DNA from: Burkholderiales bacterium
GTDB taxonomy: Bacteria > Pseudomonadota > Gammaproteobacteria > Burkholderiales > Burkholderiaceae_C
Direction of reading: 5' to 3'
DNA length: 36,109 nt
Assembly: GCA_947446855.1 (NCBI GenBank)
Contig: CANFIH010000021.1
Coordinates: 1 to 36,109, forward strand
Under the pieces are notes generated by a model that saw only the letters and a program-made list of their open reading frames with translations, did no database searches and was not told where the DNA came from. Below, one piece after another: positions 2,347-8,345 of this stretch. Each line of letters starts with the position of its first letter. The first letter of the stretch is position 1. The translations under genes and the position numbers were made by a program.

Positions 2347-2679
2347 TAGGGTTCCCCCGTGCGAGCCATGTCATTTTTGGCGTTAAGGAAATTTCTGAAC
2401 ACACTCAATGAGTTGCAGACTTCCCCGCGGCCTCCCCAATGATCTTTGACACCTGAAGGCGGATTTGCTCCGTTACCCGTTCGGAGGTTTCCAGTTGGAC
2501 CTTCATTGCCAGGAATTCACTGCTAAGTTCTTAGATTCGTCCTGCTGCCGCCAGATGCAATCCCGTCCGGGCAGGAACTAGCGCCCTCAAAAGACCCGCA
2601 AAGTCATTCCTGTGATACGTTCGAATATATGTCTACTTATAAAGGCTGATTATTTTTTCAGCCCTACCTATAGTGTTCA
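2347..2679. other. Intergenic region with a minus-strand coding remnant
   Basis: No intact gene is visible. On the minus strand an open stretch (about 2405-2530) encodes a short helical, charged tail (…VQLETSERVTEQIRLQVSK…) that ends at a stop and is closed upstream by another stop. It looks like the C-terminal scrap of a coiled-coil protein. A perfect 6-bp hairpin, GGCTGA...TCAGCC, lies at 2644-2663. The rest shows nothing recognisable. Confidence 0.4.
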
Positions 2680-2708
2680 TTGACTTGCAAAACCACTAGC
2701 AGTACCAT
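2680..2708 (+). promoter_or_regulatory. Predicted sigma-70 promoter of the E2/E1/JAB-patatin operon
   Basis: TTGACT (2680-2685) matches five of six -35 bases. After exactly 17 bases comes TACCAT (2703-2708), four of six -10 bases. Transcription would start near 2715, inside the CIRCE element that follows. Confidence 0.55.
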
Positions 2709-2711
2709 TTG

Positions 2712-2738
2712 TCAGCACTCATGGCGGTTGAGTGCTAA
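2712..2738 (+). promoter_or_regulatory. CIRCE element (HrcA operator) upstream of the defence operon
   Basis: The sequence TCAGCACTC-N9-GAGTGCTAA matches the CIRCE consensus TTAGCACTC-N9-GAGTGCTAA at 17 of 18 positions with the exact spacer length. About 3e-5 such sites would be expected by chance in 36 kb of random sequence. CIRCE is bound by the heat-shock repressor HrcA, whose activity depends on GroEL. It covers the predicted start of transcription and ends 29 bases before the first ATG, a standard repressing position. That HrcA acts here is inference; the sequence match is direct. Confidence 0.85.
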
Positions 2739-2767
2739 TTTTCGTTGCCGCCGAATACGAGGGAAAT

Positions 2768-3943
2768 ATGAGTCAAACACATCTGGTTCGGTTCTACCCG
2801 GTAGGCAACGGGGACACAAGTCAAATCATCGCAATCGATGGGAAGAGGTATCTGTTCGACTACTGCCACCGAAAGCAAGACAAGGACGACAAACGCATAG
2901 ATCTGTACAACCGCCTGAACGAGGAACTAGAAGCAGATCACCGGAACTACTTTGACGTGGTTGCCTTTACGCATGCTGACCTGGACCACATCGCCGGTAG
3001 CACGGAATTCTTCCACCTGAACCACAGCGGTAGCTATCAAGGTGGCCGGCGCAAAATCATCTCGGAGTTGTGGGTTCCCGCAGCCATGTTGCTGGAGCCG
3101 GTTGGGAAGGGCGAACAGTCGGATGAATTCGCTCTGTGGCGTAAAGAGGCCCGCCACCGCCTCCTAGACGGCAAAGGCATCCGGGTTTTCTCCCAACCGA
3201 AACCGCTCATGGACTGGCTCGAACCCAAGTTGAAAGAACGGGGTGAAAGTCCGCAAGCACGCGACCATCTGTTTGTAGACGCCGGCACACTGGTACCGGG
3301 TTATACATTGCAGAACGAGGGCATCGAGTTCTTCTGTCACAGCCCGTTTATCGAACATTGCGAGGACGGAGACATCGTCCGCAATGATGCGGCCCTGATC
3401 CTCAACATCCGCATGCGCGTTGCCGACATGGATACCGACTTCTTCCAGGTCGGTGATAGCACTTGGGAGGTGTTGGATGACGTAGTCCGAATCACGCAAT
3501 TCCACGGCAATGACGACCGACTGCGGTGGGACCTTTTCAATGTTCCGCACCACTGCAGTTACCTTGCCTTGAGCGATGAAAAAGGCGACGTTAGGACAGC
3601 TCCTAAGCCGAGAGTCAAGGAGCTGCTGGAGGCTGGCCAACCCGGAAGCTACATGGTCAGTTCCAGTGATCCCATCATCGAAACCAAAGAGGCCTACGAG
3701 CAAGTTCAGCCACCTCATGTGCAAGCGCGCAACACCTATGTGGAGTCCCTCGCGAAGGTCAGGGGCCGGAAATTTATGGTCACAATGTCTGAACCGAGCG
3801 GGTACAACCCACAACCCATCGAGTTTGCCATCGGTTCAGGGGGCGTCGCCAAACTGGCTGCAGCGGCAACTGGTGCTGCAATGGCTGCGGTCAGCAGCCC
3901 GTCGCGCAATGGCTTCTCAACCCCGGCACCGAAGTTAGGCTGA
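2768..3943 (+). CDS. MBL-fold metallohydrolase, first gene of the ubiquitin-like operon
   Basis: A 391-residue metallo-beta-lactamase-fold protein. The metal motif H69-A-D71-L-D73-H74 (FTHADLDHIAG) is intact. Further candidate ligands appear in a GD motif (QVGDSTWE) and in NVPHHCS. This H-x-D-x-D-H form is that of ComEC-type MBL domains, many of which act on nucleic acids; the substrate here is unknown. The last 35 residues are rich in Ala, Gly and Ser, look flexible and end in SRNGFSTPAPKLG, so the final residue is glycine. The ATG at 2768 has GAGGG just upstream; a GTG at 2732 lies inside the CIRCE element and is rejected. The stop is two bases before the next gene. MBL genes beside fused E2/E1/JAB genes have been noted in comparative genomics (from memory). 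Confidence 0.85.
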   Translation: MSQTHLVRFYPVGNGDTSQIIAIDGKRYLFDYCHRKQDKDDKRIDLYNRLNEELEADHRNYFDVVAFTHADLDHIAGSTEFFHLNHSGSYQGGRRKIISELWVPAAMLLEPVGKGEQSDEFALWRKEARHRLLDGKGIRVFSQPKPLMDWLEPKLKERGESPQARDHLFVDAGTLVPGYTLQNEGIEFFCHSPFIEHCEDGDIVRNDAALILNIRMRVADMDTDFFQVGDSTWEVLDDVVRITQFHGNDDRLRWDLFNVPHHCSYLALSDEKGDVRTAPKPRVKELLEAGQPGSYMVSSSDPIIETKEAYEQVQPPHVQARNTYVESLAKVRGRKFMVTMSEPSGYNPQPIEFAIGSGGVAKLAAAATGAAMAAVSSPSRNGFSTPAPKLG

Positions 3944-3945
3944 TC

Positions 3946-6207
3946 ATGGCTGAATGGCATCAGCTGCCCGAAGACCAATACAAAGTACCAGCGACTACGC
4001 TGACATTGCCGCGTTCGCAAGCCATCTTGGCCGCAGTAGCGCGACGGACGGACCTATCCTTGGAATGGTGTGCTCTTTTTAAACGCGACAACCAGCCGTT
4101 GCTGGAAACCCTTGTGGTCGATTTCGCCTGCGATGGAGTACCGAATCGCAATCATGTCGGGATTGAAATTCCCGAACGCATCGCCATACGGATTGCCACT
4201 GATAAAGACCTGCCAATCGAAGTACGCGCGCTTCGCAAGGGGTTCCCGCTGCTACTGCATCAGAATGCGGTCGAGCCAAACACAGCACCCAGTCTTTGCC
4301 TGTACGCAGAACCACAAGCGGCAGTCAATCGCAGCTGGACCGCAGAACGATTTCTGCACCGAATTGAGGAATGGCTGATTCGTGCGGCAACTGGATCCCT
4401 ACACTTAGATGACCAGCCGGTTGAGCAGTTGTTCTTCACAACCCGCTCCGAGCTGGTGCTACCACACGACTATGAAGTTCGGCGAAACGAGCCCAACCTC
4501 AAAGCCTGGGGAACGGCCAGTGCCGAACGTAGCAACAAGGGTTGCACCTACACATTGCACTGGGACTCGCCTGAACTGCAGAACCAAGCCAAGCTGCTGG
4601 ATCTGTTGATCGTGTCACTTTCACCGGTTGTACATGGTCGACCAGAAGAAAACCCGGTTACCTTAGGGCAACTGCACGACATTTTTGCTCTGCGCGGCGC
4701 TGATGTGGCTGGTAGTCTGCGAGAAGCAATTCGGTCCCGAGTCTCCAGCGCCGGCCGCAATGAAAAGGAGCAAGACGGATCCACGATGATCCTGCTGGAG
4801 ATACCTGTTGTGCGCCACACCGGGGGCCCGGTTGAACGTACCTTTCGTCGTGCCTTTTTGATCATGAAAGGCTTCTTGGACCTTGGACAATCCTTGACGG
4901 CACTGATACGCCATGAAAGGAAGTTTTATGCCGAATCCAGCGGCATTTTGCAACCAATTCAATCGGACGAATGGAGAAGTACTGCGATCGAGGGGATTGA
5001 TGTTTTGTTCGCCATATCGAAGACGCTGGCTCGACTGCACTCGGGGGTAGTCCCGTCAGGCCCGATTGGCGTTTTGGTCGGGGCCGGAAGCCTTGGGGCC
5101 GTAATGCTCGACTGCTGGCTGCGAAGTGGGTGGGGAACTTGGTCGGTGGTTGACAATGACTACCTGAAGCCACACAACCTCGTCCGACACCCTGCGGAAT
5201 ACTGGGCAATTGGTTTGAACAAAGCGGTGGCTGCTGCGGCGCGTGCAAACGAGTTAGGTCAAGGCGCGAACCAGGTTAGGGCCTTTCCCATGAGCGGACT
5301 CGACGACGGCAACCCCGAGTTGCAACAGGCATTCGCCAATGCTCAGCTGGTCGTTGATGTCACCACAGATCTGGATTTCCCGCGCAAGGTGAGTCAGTAT
5401 GAAAACAAAGCGCGCCACGCAACTGCTTTTCTGACTCCCAGCACCAATGGCAGCGTACTCATGATCGAGGACGAGAGACGCGGTGCTAGGTTGCGCACAT
5501 TGGAGGCCCAGTACTACCGGGCAGTACTTAACGAGCCCTGGGGTGCAACGCATCTGCTGGGGCATAACGGTCGCCAATGGACGGGAGCGGGTTGCAGAGA
5601 CAAATCTACGGTGATGCCCTATACCGCAGTCCTTGCGCATGCGGCAAACCTGGCGGAGCAGGTTCGCGTCCATTTGGAGTCGCCCGAGGCCTGTATTCAG
5701 GTCTGGACTCGCAATCCCGCCACTGGCGACGTCTTGAATCGCGGTGTGCCGTGCACCAACGAGTGCAACATTGGGCTAGGCCAAATCACGATCTCCATAG
5801 ACGAAGGCCTCATCGCCAAGTTGCGCGCATTGCGCAAAGCACAATTGCCAAGGGAAACCGGTGGCATTTTGCTGGGCTACCACGATTTCAATCTGAACTT
5901 ATTGGTGGTGGTGGACGCAAGTCAAGCGCCTACCGATAGCGAGGCAACGGCGACAACCTTCAAACGCGGTACGGCTGGTGTAAAGCAGCTGATTGAATCC
6001 GCAGCGACTCGCACGGCCAACATCGTTCAATACGTTGGCGAGTGGCATTCTCATCCGCCCAAAGTCTCGGCTTATCCCAGCGTCGACGACAAGATTCAGG
6101 TGTTGAATCTGGCTGCCGTGCTGGCTGAAGATGGCTTACCAGTCCTGTCACTCATTGTCGGGGACGGAAGCAGCGAACTCATGGCCATGTTGGGAGCTGC
6201 TATATGA
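3946..6207 (+). CDS. E2-like / E1 (ThiF) / JAB triple-fusion ubiquitin-like conjugation protein
   Basis: One 753-residue polypeptide carries three activities of a ubiquitin-like pathway. Residues about 65-165 resemble bacterial E2-like domains, with FP, H105 and a candidate catalytic Cys118 in SLCLY, then a helix EEWLIRAATGSL. Residues about 190-365 form a linking domain I do not recognise. The E1/ThiF domain (about 370-590) has nucleotide loop GAGSLG (379-384), D403-x-D405, NLVRH (411-415) and a candidate catalytic Cys550 in GCRDKS. The C-terminal JAB/JAMM isopeptidase (about 610-753) is complete: E637 in ETGG, H701-x-H703, S712 and D715. It combines in one chain what Cap2 and Cap3 do in type II CBASS: activation, transfer and removal of a protein tail. 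The next gene overlaps by four bases (ATGA). No ubiquitin-like protein is encoded nearby, so the conjugated partner is unknown. Confidence 0.9.
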   Translation: MAEWHQLPEDQYKVPATTLTLPRSQAILAAVARRTDLSLEWCALFKRDNQPLLETLVVDFACDGVPNRNHVGIEIPERIAIRIATDKDLPIEVRALRKGFPLLLHQNAVEPNTAPSLCLYAEPQAAVNRSWTAERFLHRIEEWLIRAATGSLHLDDQPVEQLFFTTRSELVLPHDYEVRRNEPNLKAWGTASAERSNKGCTYTLHWDSPELQNQAKLLDLLIVSLSPVVHGRPEENPVTLGQLHDIFALRGADVAGSLREAIRSRVSSAGRNEKEQDGSTMILLEIPVVRHTGGPVERTFRRAFLIMKGFLDLGQSLTALIRHERKFYAESSGILQPIQSDEWRSTAIEGIDVLFAISKTLARLHSGVVPSGPIGVLVGAGSLGAVMLDCWLRSGWGTWSVVDNDYLKPHNLVRHPAEYWAIGLNKAVAAAARANELGQGANQVRAFPMSGLDDGNPELQQAFANAQLVVDVTTDLDFPRKVSQYENKARHATAFLTPSTNGSVLMIEDERRGARLRTLEAQYYRAVLNEPWGATHLLGHNGRQWTGAGCRDKSTVMPYTAVLAHAANLAEQVRVHLESPEACIQVWTRNPATGDVLNRGVPCTNECNIGLGQITISIDEGLIAKLRALRKAQLPRETGGILLGYHDFNLNLLVVVDASQAPTDSEATATTFKRGTAGVKQLIESAATRTANIVQYVGEWHSHPPKVSAYPSVDDKIQVLNLAAVLAEDGLPVLSLIVGDGSSELMAMLGAAI

Positions 6208-7283
6208 CCGACCGACCCCAGCAGAGTATCGCGATTGCGCTGTCCGGCGGCGGCATTCGCGCGATGGCGTTTCATCTGGGGGTTTTCAAATTCTTGGCTG
6301 AAATGGGCTTGCTGGAAAGGGTTTCCAAGCTGTCTTCGGTTTCTGGCGGAAGCCTGTTGGTTGGCTTGATCCTGCATCATCACAAAATGCGGTGGCCTAC
6401 TTCTTCGGAGTTTTTGGCTGACACATACCCCTCCCTGCGAACCACGTTGTGCCACACCAACCTTATTCCCGGTGCCTTGTTGGCGCTACTGAAGCCATGC
6501 AATTGGCGGTTTCTTATTTCCCGCGCCAACTTGTTGGCTAAGGCCTTGGAGTCGGTCTGGGGCATCCACGAAAAGGTTTGCGACCTTCCTGAGTTCCCAG
6601 AAATTTCATTCAATGGAACGACCGCCGAAAATGGCAAGCGTTTCCGATTCAAGCGTGACTCAATGGGCGATTACTTGCTGGGCTATGCCAAGCCCCAAGA
6701 TTTCCAGTTGGCCGAAGCATTGGCGGTGTCAGCCGCAGTGCCCGGCGTCTTTGGGCCACTTGCTATCGAGGCCTCCAAGTTCAACTGGGAGCGGCGTGCC
6801 AATTGGGGCGCCCCGAAAGATGATCTGCAGCAGGTCCCGCCGTCGTTTAAACGCCTGCACCTATACGACGGAGGCGCTTACGACAATTTGGGGATTGAGC
6901 CGTTTTTTGACTGTGGCAAGAATGCCGCCAAGGAAGGTGCGGATGATTGCTACATCATTGTTAGCGATGCCGGTGCCGTATTGAAGGATGGATTCAGAAT
7001 GCACCCATTCAACTTCATGCGACTCAAGCGCGTGTCGGACATCCAGGGTGAACAGACCCGCTCGCTGCGTGTACGGTCATTTTGGACATTTCTGAAGCGA
7101 AGTGCTACGGGTGGTGCTTATATCTATATCGCAGAACCACCAATCCCTCCAGACAAATCCGCTCAAGGCGCGATTTTTTATCGCACGACACTGTCACCCT
7201 TGTCCGAATCAGATTTCGACGCCATTGCCGATCGGGGTCACGCAGTGGCAAACTTGAACCAGCAACTGGCAAGCTTCACTTGA
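6204..7283 (+). CDS. Patatin-like phospholipase, probable effector
   Basis: A 359-residue patatin-fold lipid hydrolase. The oxyanion loop GGGIRA is at 15-20, the nucleophile Ser47 lies in SVSGGS (45-50) and the catalytic Asp222 in DGGAYDNLG (222-230), so the Ser-Asp dyad is present. The nucleophile elbow reads S-x-S-x-G rather than G-x-S-x-G, a variation some patatins tolerate. Patatin phospholipases such as CapV are membrane-degrading effectors of CBASS anti-phage systems. By analogy this one may destroy membranes when the operon is triggered; that role is inferred from its neighbours. The start overlaps the preceding stop (ATGA), so its synthesis is coupled to the E2/E1/JAB protein. Confidence 0.88.
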   Translation: MTDRPQQSIAIALSGGGIRAMAFHLGVFKFLAEMGLLERVSKLSSVSGGSLLVGLILHHHKMRWPTSSEFLADTYPSLRTTLCHTNLIPGALLALLKPCNWRFLISRANLLAKALESVWGIHEKVCDLPEFPEISFNGTTAENGKRFRFKRDSMGDYLLGYAKPQDFQLAEALAVSAAVPGVFGPLAIEASKFNWERRANWGAPKDDLQQVPPSFKRLHLYDGGAYDNLGIEPFFDCGKNAAKEGADDCYIIVSDAGAVLKDGFRMHPFNFMRLKRVSDIQGEQTRSLRVRSFWTFLKRSATGGAYIYIAEPPIPPDKSAQGAIFYRTTLSPLSESDFDAIADRGHAVANLNQQLASFT

Positions 7284-7352
7284 TGTCAACAATGGTTTCT
7301 ATGTCATCACGTGGACTGGATGGCTTCAAAACTTCAGGGAGTGAGTTCAACA

Positions 7353-8345
7353 ATGAAAGCAAATGAACTGTTTGGTAAAAAACAACCAGCCGCGAAGGCC
7401 GTGCGCACGCGTTTTCGTGCCTACAAGCTTGGCAGGGCTGGTTCGTTGTGCTCCTATTTTGCCGACGGGCACTTTACGCTGATTGAGGCAATGGATACTG
7501 AGCTCAGTCGGCCCAGACTACTGGCGGAAATGAAACTCTGCGGCAAGAAATCCATTGACACGCTTCATATTACGAGTTGGGATGAAGATCATTGTGAGGC
7601 GAACTCCCTGGAATGGATTCTGGCAACAATCAGTCCCAAGAAGATTCAGGTGCCCGGATACCAGCACGACACTCAGAATGTTAAGGATTGTCAGAACCTA
7701 ATTTCGCAGTACCAGTCCACACGACGACGTATTGGAAAAAACACCGATGTAATGGCCATCACTCCTGAGTACATCACGAGCTTGGGCAAAGCGGCGGTGC
7801 TGGGCTATGAAAACATCCTTTACCATCCAAAGTCCATCTTCACAAAATCCAACGATAACTCCACGGTCAAATTTTTCCGCAGAGGCTGTTTCAATGTGTT
7901 GAGCACTGGGGACATAGAGCACCACAATATCGGTGCCTATCTGCGGTGCTGCAAAAAGCTTCAGCGTGAACTGGATGTTTTGCTGTTACCGCATCACGGC
8001 GGGGCAGTAGATTTGATGAGCAAGAAGTTTCTGGAAGAGCTTAACCCGAGCCTCGCAGTTTGTACCTCCAATACTGGAAATCAGCACGAGCATCCTGACC
8101 CTGCAGTTCGAAAACTATTGAGCGACCGACGTATCCCACTGATGACGACAAAGCGCGGCGACGTGGTCATTGAGTCGATTGGAAGTCATATGAGCAAGTA
8201 CCAAGCCTTTGACCTGATTTCAGATGGCGAGACTGCGCAAGAACAACGGACCTTCACTGCTCGAAAATTTGAGGTTATGTCCATGAATGGCGATACCATT
8301 CGAAACAGACTTGAAATCCGGAGCAATCGGCCACGTCTTCATTAA
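7353..8345 (+). CDS. ComEC-like MBL-fold protein, last gene of the operon
   Basis: A 330-residue protein with the C-terminal-type MBL domain found in ComEC. GD in STGDIEHHN, LLLPHHGG and HEHPDP supply candidate metal ligands. The first motif reads S75-W-D77-E-D79-H80 instead of H-x-D-x-D-H, so the first histidine ligand is missing. It may bind metal at one site only, or be a non-catalytic partner of the first MBL protein. The gene begins about 70 bases after the patatin gene. The ATG at 7353 is chosen because AGGGAG (7336-7341) lies 11 bases upstream; GTG codons at 7311 and 7341 are alternatives. It is the last plus-strand gene before a strong hairpin. Confidence 0.8.
   Translation: MKANELFGKKQPAAKAVRTRFRAYKLGRAGSLCSYFADGHFTLIEAMDTELSRPRLLAEMKLCGKKSIDTLHITSWDEDHCEANSLEWILATISPKKIQVPGYQHDTQNVKDCQNLISQYQSTRRRIGKNTDVMAITPEYITSLGKAAVLGYENILYHPKSIFTKSNDNSTVKFFRRGCFNVLSTGDIEHHNIGAYLRCCKKLQRELDVLLLPHHGGAVDLMSKKFLEELNPSLAVCTSNTGNQHEHPDPAVRKLLSDRRIPLMTTKRGDVVIESIGSHMSKYQAFDLISDGETAQEQRTFTARKFEVMSMNGDTIRNRLEIRSNRPRLH

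Follow-up and report, generated by a model that had tools for sequence, protein, structure and literature searches.

Predicted HrcA and NrdR operators at the promoter of a mobile 6A-MBL anti-phage operon

What holds costly defence operons off, and what then turns them on, is a largely open question. It is raised here by a four-gene operon on a Burkholderiales contig (CANFIH010000021.1), of which a stretch of 36,109 nucleotides, hereafter the window, was analysed. All four genes lie on the forward strand. The first (2768..3943) encodes a 391-residue MBL-fold enzyme, which NCBIfam model NF058524 assigns to the 6A-MBL system (350.8 bits; cut-off, 220), and the second (3946..6207) encodes a 753-residue E2-E1-JAB fusion, the 6A-MBL cap2_3 protein (NF058523, 621.4 bits against a cut-off of 320), which contains Prok-E2_A, ThiF and Prok-JAB domains. 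They are followed by a gene for a 359-residue patatin-like phospholipase (6204..7283; PF01734), probably the effector of the operon, and by a gene for a second, weakly ComEC-like MBL protein of 344 residues (7311..8345). The MBL enzyme and the E2-E1-JAB fusion both score well above the equivalog cut-offs of the NCBIfam 'anti-phage 6A-MBL system' models, which bears out the original prediction of a defence operon; that the window operon protects against phage is predicted from the name of those models. The class of the operon is already known, and its regulation is what appears, by sequence, to be new.

ArdC, RadC, ParB, TrbI, CagX and VirB8 matches suggest that the window operon is carried by a conjugative element, which we take to be of the Trb type. 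An AbiEi/AbiEii type IV toxin-antitoxin pair lies directly upstream of the operon, at 708-2322. The second, weakly ComEC-like MBL gene recurs beside some patatin-type 6A-MBL operons (L036, L064, L067 and L120), and operons that lack patatin, for example L007 and L043, have another kind of MBL-like gene together with a gene that has no Pfam match.

What could control this operon? At 2712-2738 on the forward strand, the window reads TCAGCACTC ATGGCGGTT GAGTGCTAA. As originally claimed, this stretch matches the CIRCE element, TTAGCACTC-N9-GAGTGCTAA, at 17 of 18 arm bases with the exact 9-bp spacing, and it is the sole CIRCE-like site in the window at three or fewer mismatches (0.01 expected from shuffles). 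The only sigma-70-like match between 2400 and 2800 is TTGACT-N17-TACCAT at 2680-2708, with a predicted -35 hexamer at 2680..2685 and a predicted -10 hexamer at 2703..2708, both on the forward strand. Given that 0.5 such matches are expected by chance, the promoter prediction is weak taken alone; many relatives have TTGAC and then TATAGT at the equivalent positions. The CIRCE element begins 3 bp past the predicted -10 hexamer and, as proposed at the outset, lies over the predicted transcription start, a geometry that is similar in relatives. It ends 29 bp before the likely start codon of the MBL gene, ATG at 2768; a longer frame from GTG at 2732 would begin within the element and is less likely.

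The surroundings of this site also speak to its identity. The genome bin of the window (4.48 Mb, 334 contigs) contains three CIRCE sites at three or fewer mismatches, including that of the window, and the other two are perfect: one precedes rpoH (L001, where rpoH runs leftwards from 1469 and CIRCE lies at 1501-1527) and the other precedes groES (L002). A chance origin of the window element is rejected on the shuffle expectation, on these three genomic sites and on a calculated chance of 1e-7 for a CIRCE match with at most one mismatch per 170-bp region of even base composition. Two hrcA genes exceed the cut-off in the bin (G000:C246 and G000:C76). The bin contamination is 6.5%, so the second copy may be foreign, and it is either a paralogue or a contaminant. 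An inverted repeat at such a position could also terminate transcription intrinsically or stabilise the 5' end of the mRNA instead of serving as an operator, and a scan indeed marks 2714-2736 as terminator-like; however, the letters conserved beyond the needs of pairing equal those of the groES and rpoH elements, which leaves this explanation very little room. The terminator itself is rejected, since relatives have no consistent T-run after the repeat.

Is the element a property of this operon family? An alignment of E2-E1-JAB proteins was used, by way of two short peptide patterns and thus short of a full census, to scan 84,980 species genomes, which yielded 52 loci; five of 302 matching plasmid records and nine viral loci were added. 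Before counting, we dropped L012 (same place as L044), L032 (identical to L006), L055 (a near-copy of L054), L061 (close to L008/L063), L034, L050 and L072 (no MBL found), L078 (MBL truncated) and the viral loci L079-L087, which left 51 operons. The best CIRCE match in the dropped rows has 5-7 mismatches, except in L012, which is counted once as L044. Of the 51 operons, 19 have CIRCE with 0-2 mismatches ahead of their MBL gene: the window operon, L007 and 17 from the 45 genome loci. Nine of these elements have no mismatch, six have one and four have two. The element is therefore present in 18 of the 50 homologous operons besides the window, so that the idea that such operons never carry it fails. 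Scans of whole loci are bimodal: CIRCE occurs at 0-2 mismatches before the MBL gene, or else the best match anywhere has at least 5 mismatches, and in CIRCE-bearing loci the next-best match also has at least 5. In 18 of the 19 operons, the distance from the first base of the element to the MBL start is 56-78 bp; in L051, this distance is 425 bp and the interval contains a small ORF. Among 14 representatives, the mean pairwise identity is 0.88 and 0.97 in the two arms, 0.43 in the spacer and 0.30 and 0.26 in the flanks. Conserved arms with a diverged spacer and diverged flanks would be more readily explained by selection for an operator than by recent common descent. By their record titles, the CIRCE-bearing operons come from Comamonadaceae, Gallionella, Sideroxydans, Methylibium, Sinimarinibacterium, Allochromatium, Fulvimonas, Dokdonella, a Micavibrio bin and others.

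The element is recurrent and not obligatory, given that 32 of the 51 operons are without CIRCE and several of these have other dyads. A GCATCA-N7-TGATGC dyad was seen by eye upstream of the MBL gene in the CIRCE-less L006, L030, L037 and L041, and a TTGTCTAG-type palindrome lies at the same place in L027, which has no CIRCE; a WYL gene adjoins the operon in L009 and L010. The other palindromes suggest that repressors may have been swapped in the CIRCE-less operons. Hold-out searches of family, class and phylum samples (399, 369 and 398 genomes) yielded only close operons already in the set (L284-L288, 100% identical to L032, L069, L037, L033 and L049), plus distant ones. An order sample of 399 genomes yielded L119, identical to L047 in the tree described below, and two distant operons. 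Three of the five new distant operons (L120, L121 and L289-L291) could be judged, and none of the three has CIRCE. A search of plasmids with the L031 promoter and a search of phages with the E2-E1-JAB protein gave no match.

An hrcA gene was found in 43 of 50 host genomes. Hosts with hrcA account for 39 of the 45 genome loci, 15 with CIRCE at the operon and 24 without, which indicates that CIRCE is dispensable or replaceable. The remaining six are in hosts where hrcA was not found: L029 and L051, both from MAGs, have CIRCE at the operon, and L042, L056, L064 and L076 do not. Further CIRCE sites, ahead of groES or an rpoH-like gene, are present in the L029 and L051 bins, and hrcA is thus probably missing from the assembly. 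No CIRCE at two or fewer mismatches was found anywhere in the genomes of L042, L056, L076 and L078, all without a found hrcA. The L042 operon has a site with six mismatches in the left arm, a spacer equal to that of L071 and a right arm one base off, which by its letters appears to be the remnant of a CIRCE element in a genome where hrcA was not found; such cases are too few for statistics. Separately, the L068 operon clusters with operons from proteobacteria although its bin carries the label Bifidobacterium, so that the contig may be misbinned and the host hrcA result unreliable there.

All 17 genomes with CIRCE at the operon have at least one further CIRCE. Among the matches listed, 56 other CIRCE sites from 29 host genomes were compared by tblastn with groES, the first part of groEL, rpoH and hrcA, all taken from the genome of the window. 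Their targets are groES/EL in 28 cases, rpoH-like genes in 24 (another sigma factor being possible in individual cases), hrcA in two and an hsp20-like gene in one (L268, by eye); the 56th site (L236) is at a contig edge. The 56 do not include some further sites (those of G214 and G198, for instance), a site close to hrcA in G238 or the second members of tandem pairs. Within the sites examined, the 6A-MBL operon is the sole CIRCE target outside the heat-shock set. The window CIRCE is, by every sequence test run, very probably an HrcA operator. Compared with the known HrcA/CIRCE operons (groESL, rpoH, hrcA and hsp20), its operator letters, spacing and position at the start region are the same and hrcA is present in the bin, whereas the genes that it would control belong to a mobile anti-phage operon and encode neither a chaperone nor a heat-shock regulator. 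That all 55 assignable other targets are heat-shock genes could be taken to mean that the ubiquitin-like machine is itself a heat-shock or quality-control system, coinduced with chaperones, and that defence is a by-product. We regard this as improbable, since the proteins match anti-phage 6A-MBL models, the effector is of the patatin type, and NrdR boxes, described next, tie the operon to the nucleotide state. Moreover, unlike a housekeeping system, the operon is rare (4 of 399 genomes in the order sample and 5 of 399 in the family sample, the window's own included) and occurs on plasmids and on a conjugative element.

Upstream of CIRCE, many operons have two further palindromes near ACACTATATATAGTGT, usually one before the -35 hexamer and one over the -10 hexamer. 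Paired palindromes near ACACWATATATWGTGT, the consensus used here, are what we take to be NrdR boxes, and a scan with this consensus made pairs at a start-to-start distance of 31-32 prominent in many operons. A matrix trained on six RNR promoter pairs alone, themselves chosen by that consensus, places 19 of the 51 operons, the window included, above all 3870 control windows; L074, L049 and L065 nearly reach the control maximum. The gap between the boxes is 15-16 bp in the operons above controls, except for 26 bp in L044. One study describes NrdR boxes 15-16 bp apart in Listeria, Streptomyces and E. coli and reports that a gap of 24-27 bp likewise allows binding (PMC12051234), a second range into which the L044 gap falls. 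Another places the boxes at a three-turn spacing, in many cases across the polymerase site, and gives the dATP/ATP-loaded protein as the DNA-binding form of NrdR, which binds when dATP is high (PMC9110341). The operon boxes are laid out as in NrdR-controlled RNR operons, with two 16-bp palindromes and a 15-16-bp gap over the promoter. They differ in that the 6A-MBL gene is not an RNR gene, that CIRCE is added downstream and that the second box of the window is weak.

The reverse comparison was made with a matrix from 15 operon NrdR pairs, tested on 30 RNR loci of ~4.5 kb each and 86 control chunks of 3 kb. Thirteen of the 30 RNR loci score above all 86 controls, the best at 35.8 bits, and in every one of the 13 the pair lies 5' of the RNR match; the other 17 do not outscore the controls. 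The nrdA promoter of the window's own genome has a pair that scores 32.0 bits by this operon-trained matrix. An exact-spacing search of the window's genome with the NrdR consensus, at three or fewer mismatches in all, gave no match, which indicates that even its nrdA boxes are not close to that consensus in the form used. An nrdR gene is present in 23 of 24 genomes examined, including that of the window, and was not found in the L040 host. These results give us high confidence that NrdR would control the operon in relatives. In the window, box 1 (GCCCTACCTATAGTGT, 2661..2676, forward strand) has 12 of 16 consensus letters and 15.0 bits by the RNR-trained matrix, and a degenerate box 2 (CCACTAGCAGTACCAT, 2693..2708, forward strand) follows after a 16-bp gap with 2.5 bits. 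The pair scores 17.5 against a control maximum of 17.3, with a weak box 2; some relatives above all controls also have one weak box. Whether NrdR control would still act in the window itself is, by these scores, evenly balanced.

CIRCE and NrdR pairs tend to occur together: 15 of the 51 operons have both, four CIRCE only, four NrdR only and 28 neither (Fisher 3e-6; 3.4e-5 after dereplication to 45). Six phylogenetically independent pairs show an association in the same direction that is not significant (median p 0.22). On a tree of 52 rows, in which L119 is a copy of L047, CIRCE requires 10 changes, compared with 15.7 for shuffled labels. CIRCE-bearing operons sit on several separate branches, including that of the window, and we therefore favour an old element that would have been repeatedly lost or replaced over one that was repeatedly gained. 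The branch of the window is long (1.24) and insecurely placed. Together with the decay of the second NrdR box, this long branch could make the window CIRCE an inherited relic that functions in relatives and has lost its importance here; the element nevertheless retains 17 of 18 bases while the flanks in the family fell to ~0.3 identity, and we consider a relic highly unlikely.

We propose that HrcA and, in many relatives, NrdR lock the mobile 6A-MBL operon, which we judge to be likely from the operators described, and we infer that both would act as repressors of it. Under good conditions, host HrcA, kept active by free GroEL, would sit on CIRCE over the transcription start, and in most CIRCE-bearing relatives dATP/ATP-loaded host NrdR would sit on the two boxes around the -35 and -10 hexamers, both repressors blocking a single sigma-70 promoter. 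Occupation of GroEL by unfolded or foreign protein would release HrcA, and a fall in dATP would release NrdR. The operon would then be expressed, and the E2-E1-JAB machine, the MBL enzyme and the patatin would be stocked for defence. Given that HrcA, NrdR and their operators are widely conserved, such control could travel with the operon and work in new hosts without a regulator of its own. These sites thereby offer a reason for regulation surviving transfer between distant bacteria.

What would the lock respond to? Phages use GroEL, and the original prediction read the locus as a chaperone-titration sensor of infection. Its HrcA operator stands, in view of hrcA, the groES and rpoH sites and the 18 of 50 homologues; a chaperone sensor alone probably does not, since the NrdR pair is found in many relatives and, partly decayed, in the window. 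One paper reports that HrcA binding is raised by GroE, with GroE titration by misfolded protein as the proposed model; it also describes C. jejuni HrcA as sensing heat by itself as well as via GroE, which weighs against a simple infection sensor (PMC8533110). With GroE-raised HrcA binding and NrdR binding at high dATP, the promoter would read two host variables, both of which a lytic phage could alter. That phage infection is its main inducer seems to us somewhat less likely than not. More speculatively, and with considerable doubt on our part, the two repressors could form a two-key lock in which lost free chaperonin, read by HrcA, and falling dATP, read by NrdR, together recognise lytic infection. 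Phage proteins folding on GroEL would free HrcA, and phage DNA synthesis would lower dATP, which we assume to fall during the relevant infections; each repressor alone could cover the single promoter, so both would have to leave. If this is true, infection is told apart from plain heat shock or plain replication stress, and host stress repressors serve as a portable, sequence-independent infection sensor for a mobile defence operon. One special case points the other way. A report on Campylobacter jejuni in phage carrier-state cultures finds lower hrcA and describes repression of the HrcA heat-shock regulon, with a phage-made GroES substitute as a possible cause (PMC4534711), which would also speak against a simple infection sensor. 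Phage-borne chaperones could also keep such a lock closed.

The same sites can be read as portable silencing rather than sensing. Two host repressors would keep a costly, potentially self-harming operon low in new hosts, which is possible and in our view rather unlikely, as is the further part of this reading, that infection has no role in release and defence is activated post-translationally. The operon does move with its promoter between distant hosts, as the near-identical L031, L035 and L038 in Sinimarinibacterium, Allochromatium and a bin labelled betaproteobacterium illustrate, and some relatives have other dyads or a neighbouring WYL gene, as if any repressor serves. However, the pairing of exactly these two physiological sensors recurs in 15 of 51 operons, the CIRCE arms are much more conserved than their surroundings, and a constitutively weak promoter would be simpler. 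With either sensing or silencing, conserved sites tie a mobile defence operon in many proteobacterial genera to two housekeeping repressors, one reading the chaperonin state and the other the dNTP state; the HrcA regulon gains a predicted defence-operon member, and so does the NrdR regulon in relatives.

How does this operon compare with known systems? In the literature searched, no text on 6A-MBL regulation was found and the term '6A-MBL' appeared in no paper; among the matches listed, no paper joined HrcA/CIRCE or NrdR to a defence system. The operon shares E2-E1 conjugase and JAB isopeptidase domains with type II CBASS (Cap2/Cap3), in which patatin effectors also occur. Membership in type II CBASS is rejected, since Pfam, PADLOC and NCBIfam reveal no CD-NTase among the four operon genes and an MBL enzyme takes its place. 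For one CBASS, the cyclase has been proposed to be held by conjugation to PspA, a control at the protein level (PMC11153139). The C-terminus of the MBL enzyme carries a PPRAG-like tail in nearly all operons (L006-L078), sometimes with a few additional residues or a tail repeat, and in the window (3900-3943) this ubiquitin-like tail region reads SPSRNG plus nine residues. Because the tail resembles a ubiquitin-like C-terminus, E2-E1 may conjugate, and JAB may trim, the MBL enzyme itself.

CIRCE is found in viruses as well. Exact elements occur in 104 viral (IMG/VR) stretches, such as L150, L164, L195, L196 and L154, and tblastn with the four proteins of the window found no 6A-MBL genes in them. 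These stretches hold 114 CIRCE sites, with groES/groEL within 1500 bp downstream in 13 and not in 101. Ten first ORFs chosen from the 101 sites comprise four HSP20, one HSP90 and five unmatched ORFs. The HSP20 and HSP90 ORFs indicate that phages, too, seem to place some of their genes under HrcA control. A high NrdR-pair score occurs at one of the 114 viral sites, on the contig L189, where the stretch 2374-2560, with no obvious gene, contains several NrdR-like boxes and then a perfect CIRCE.
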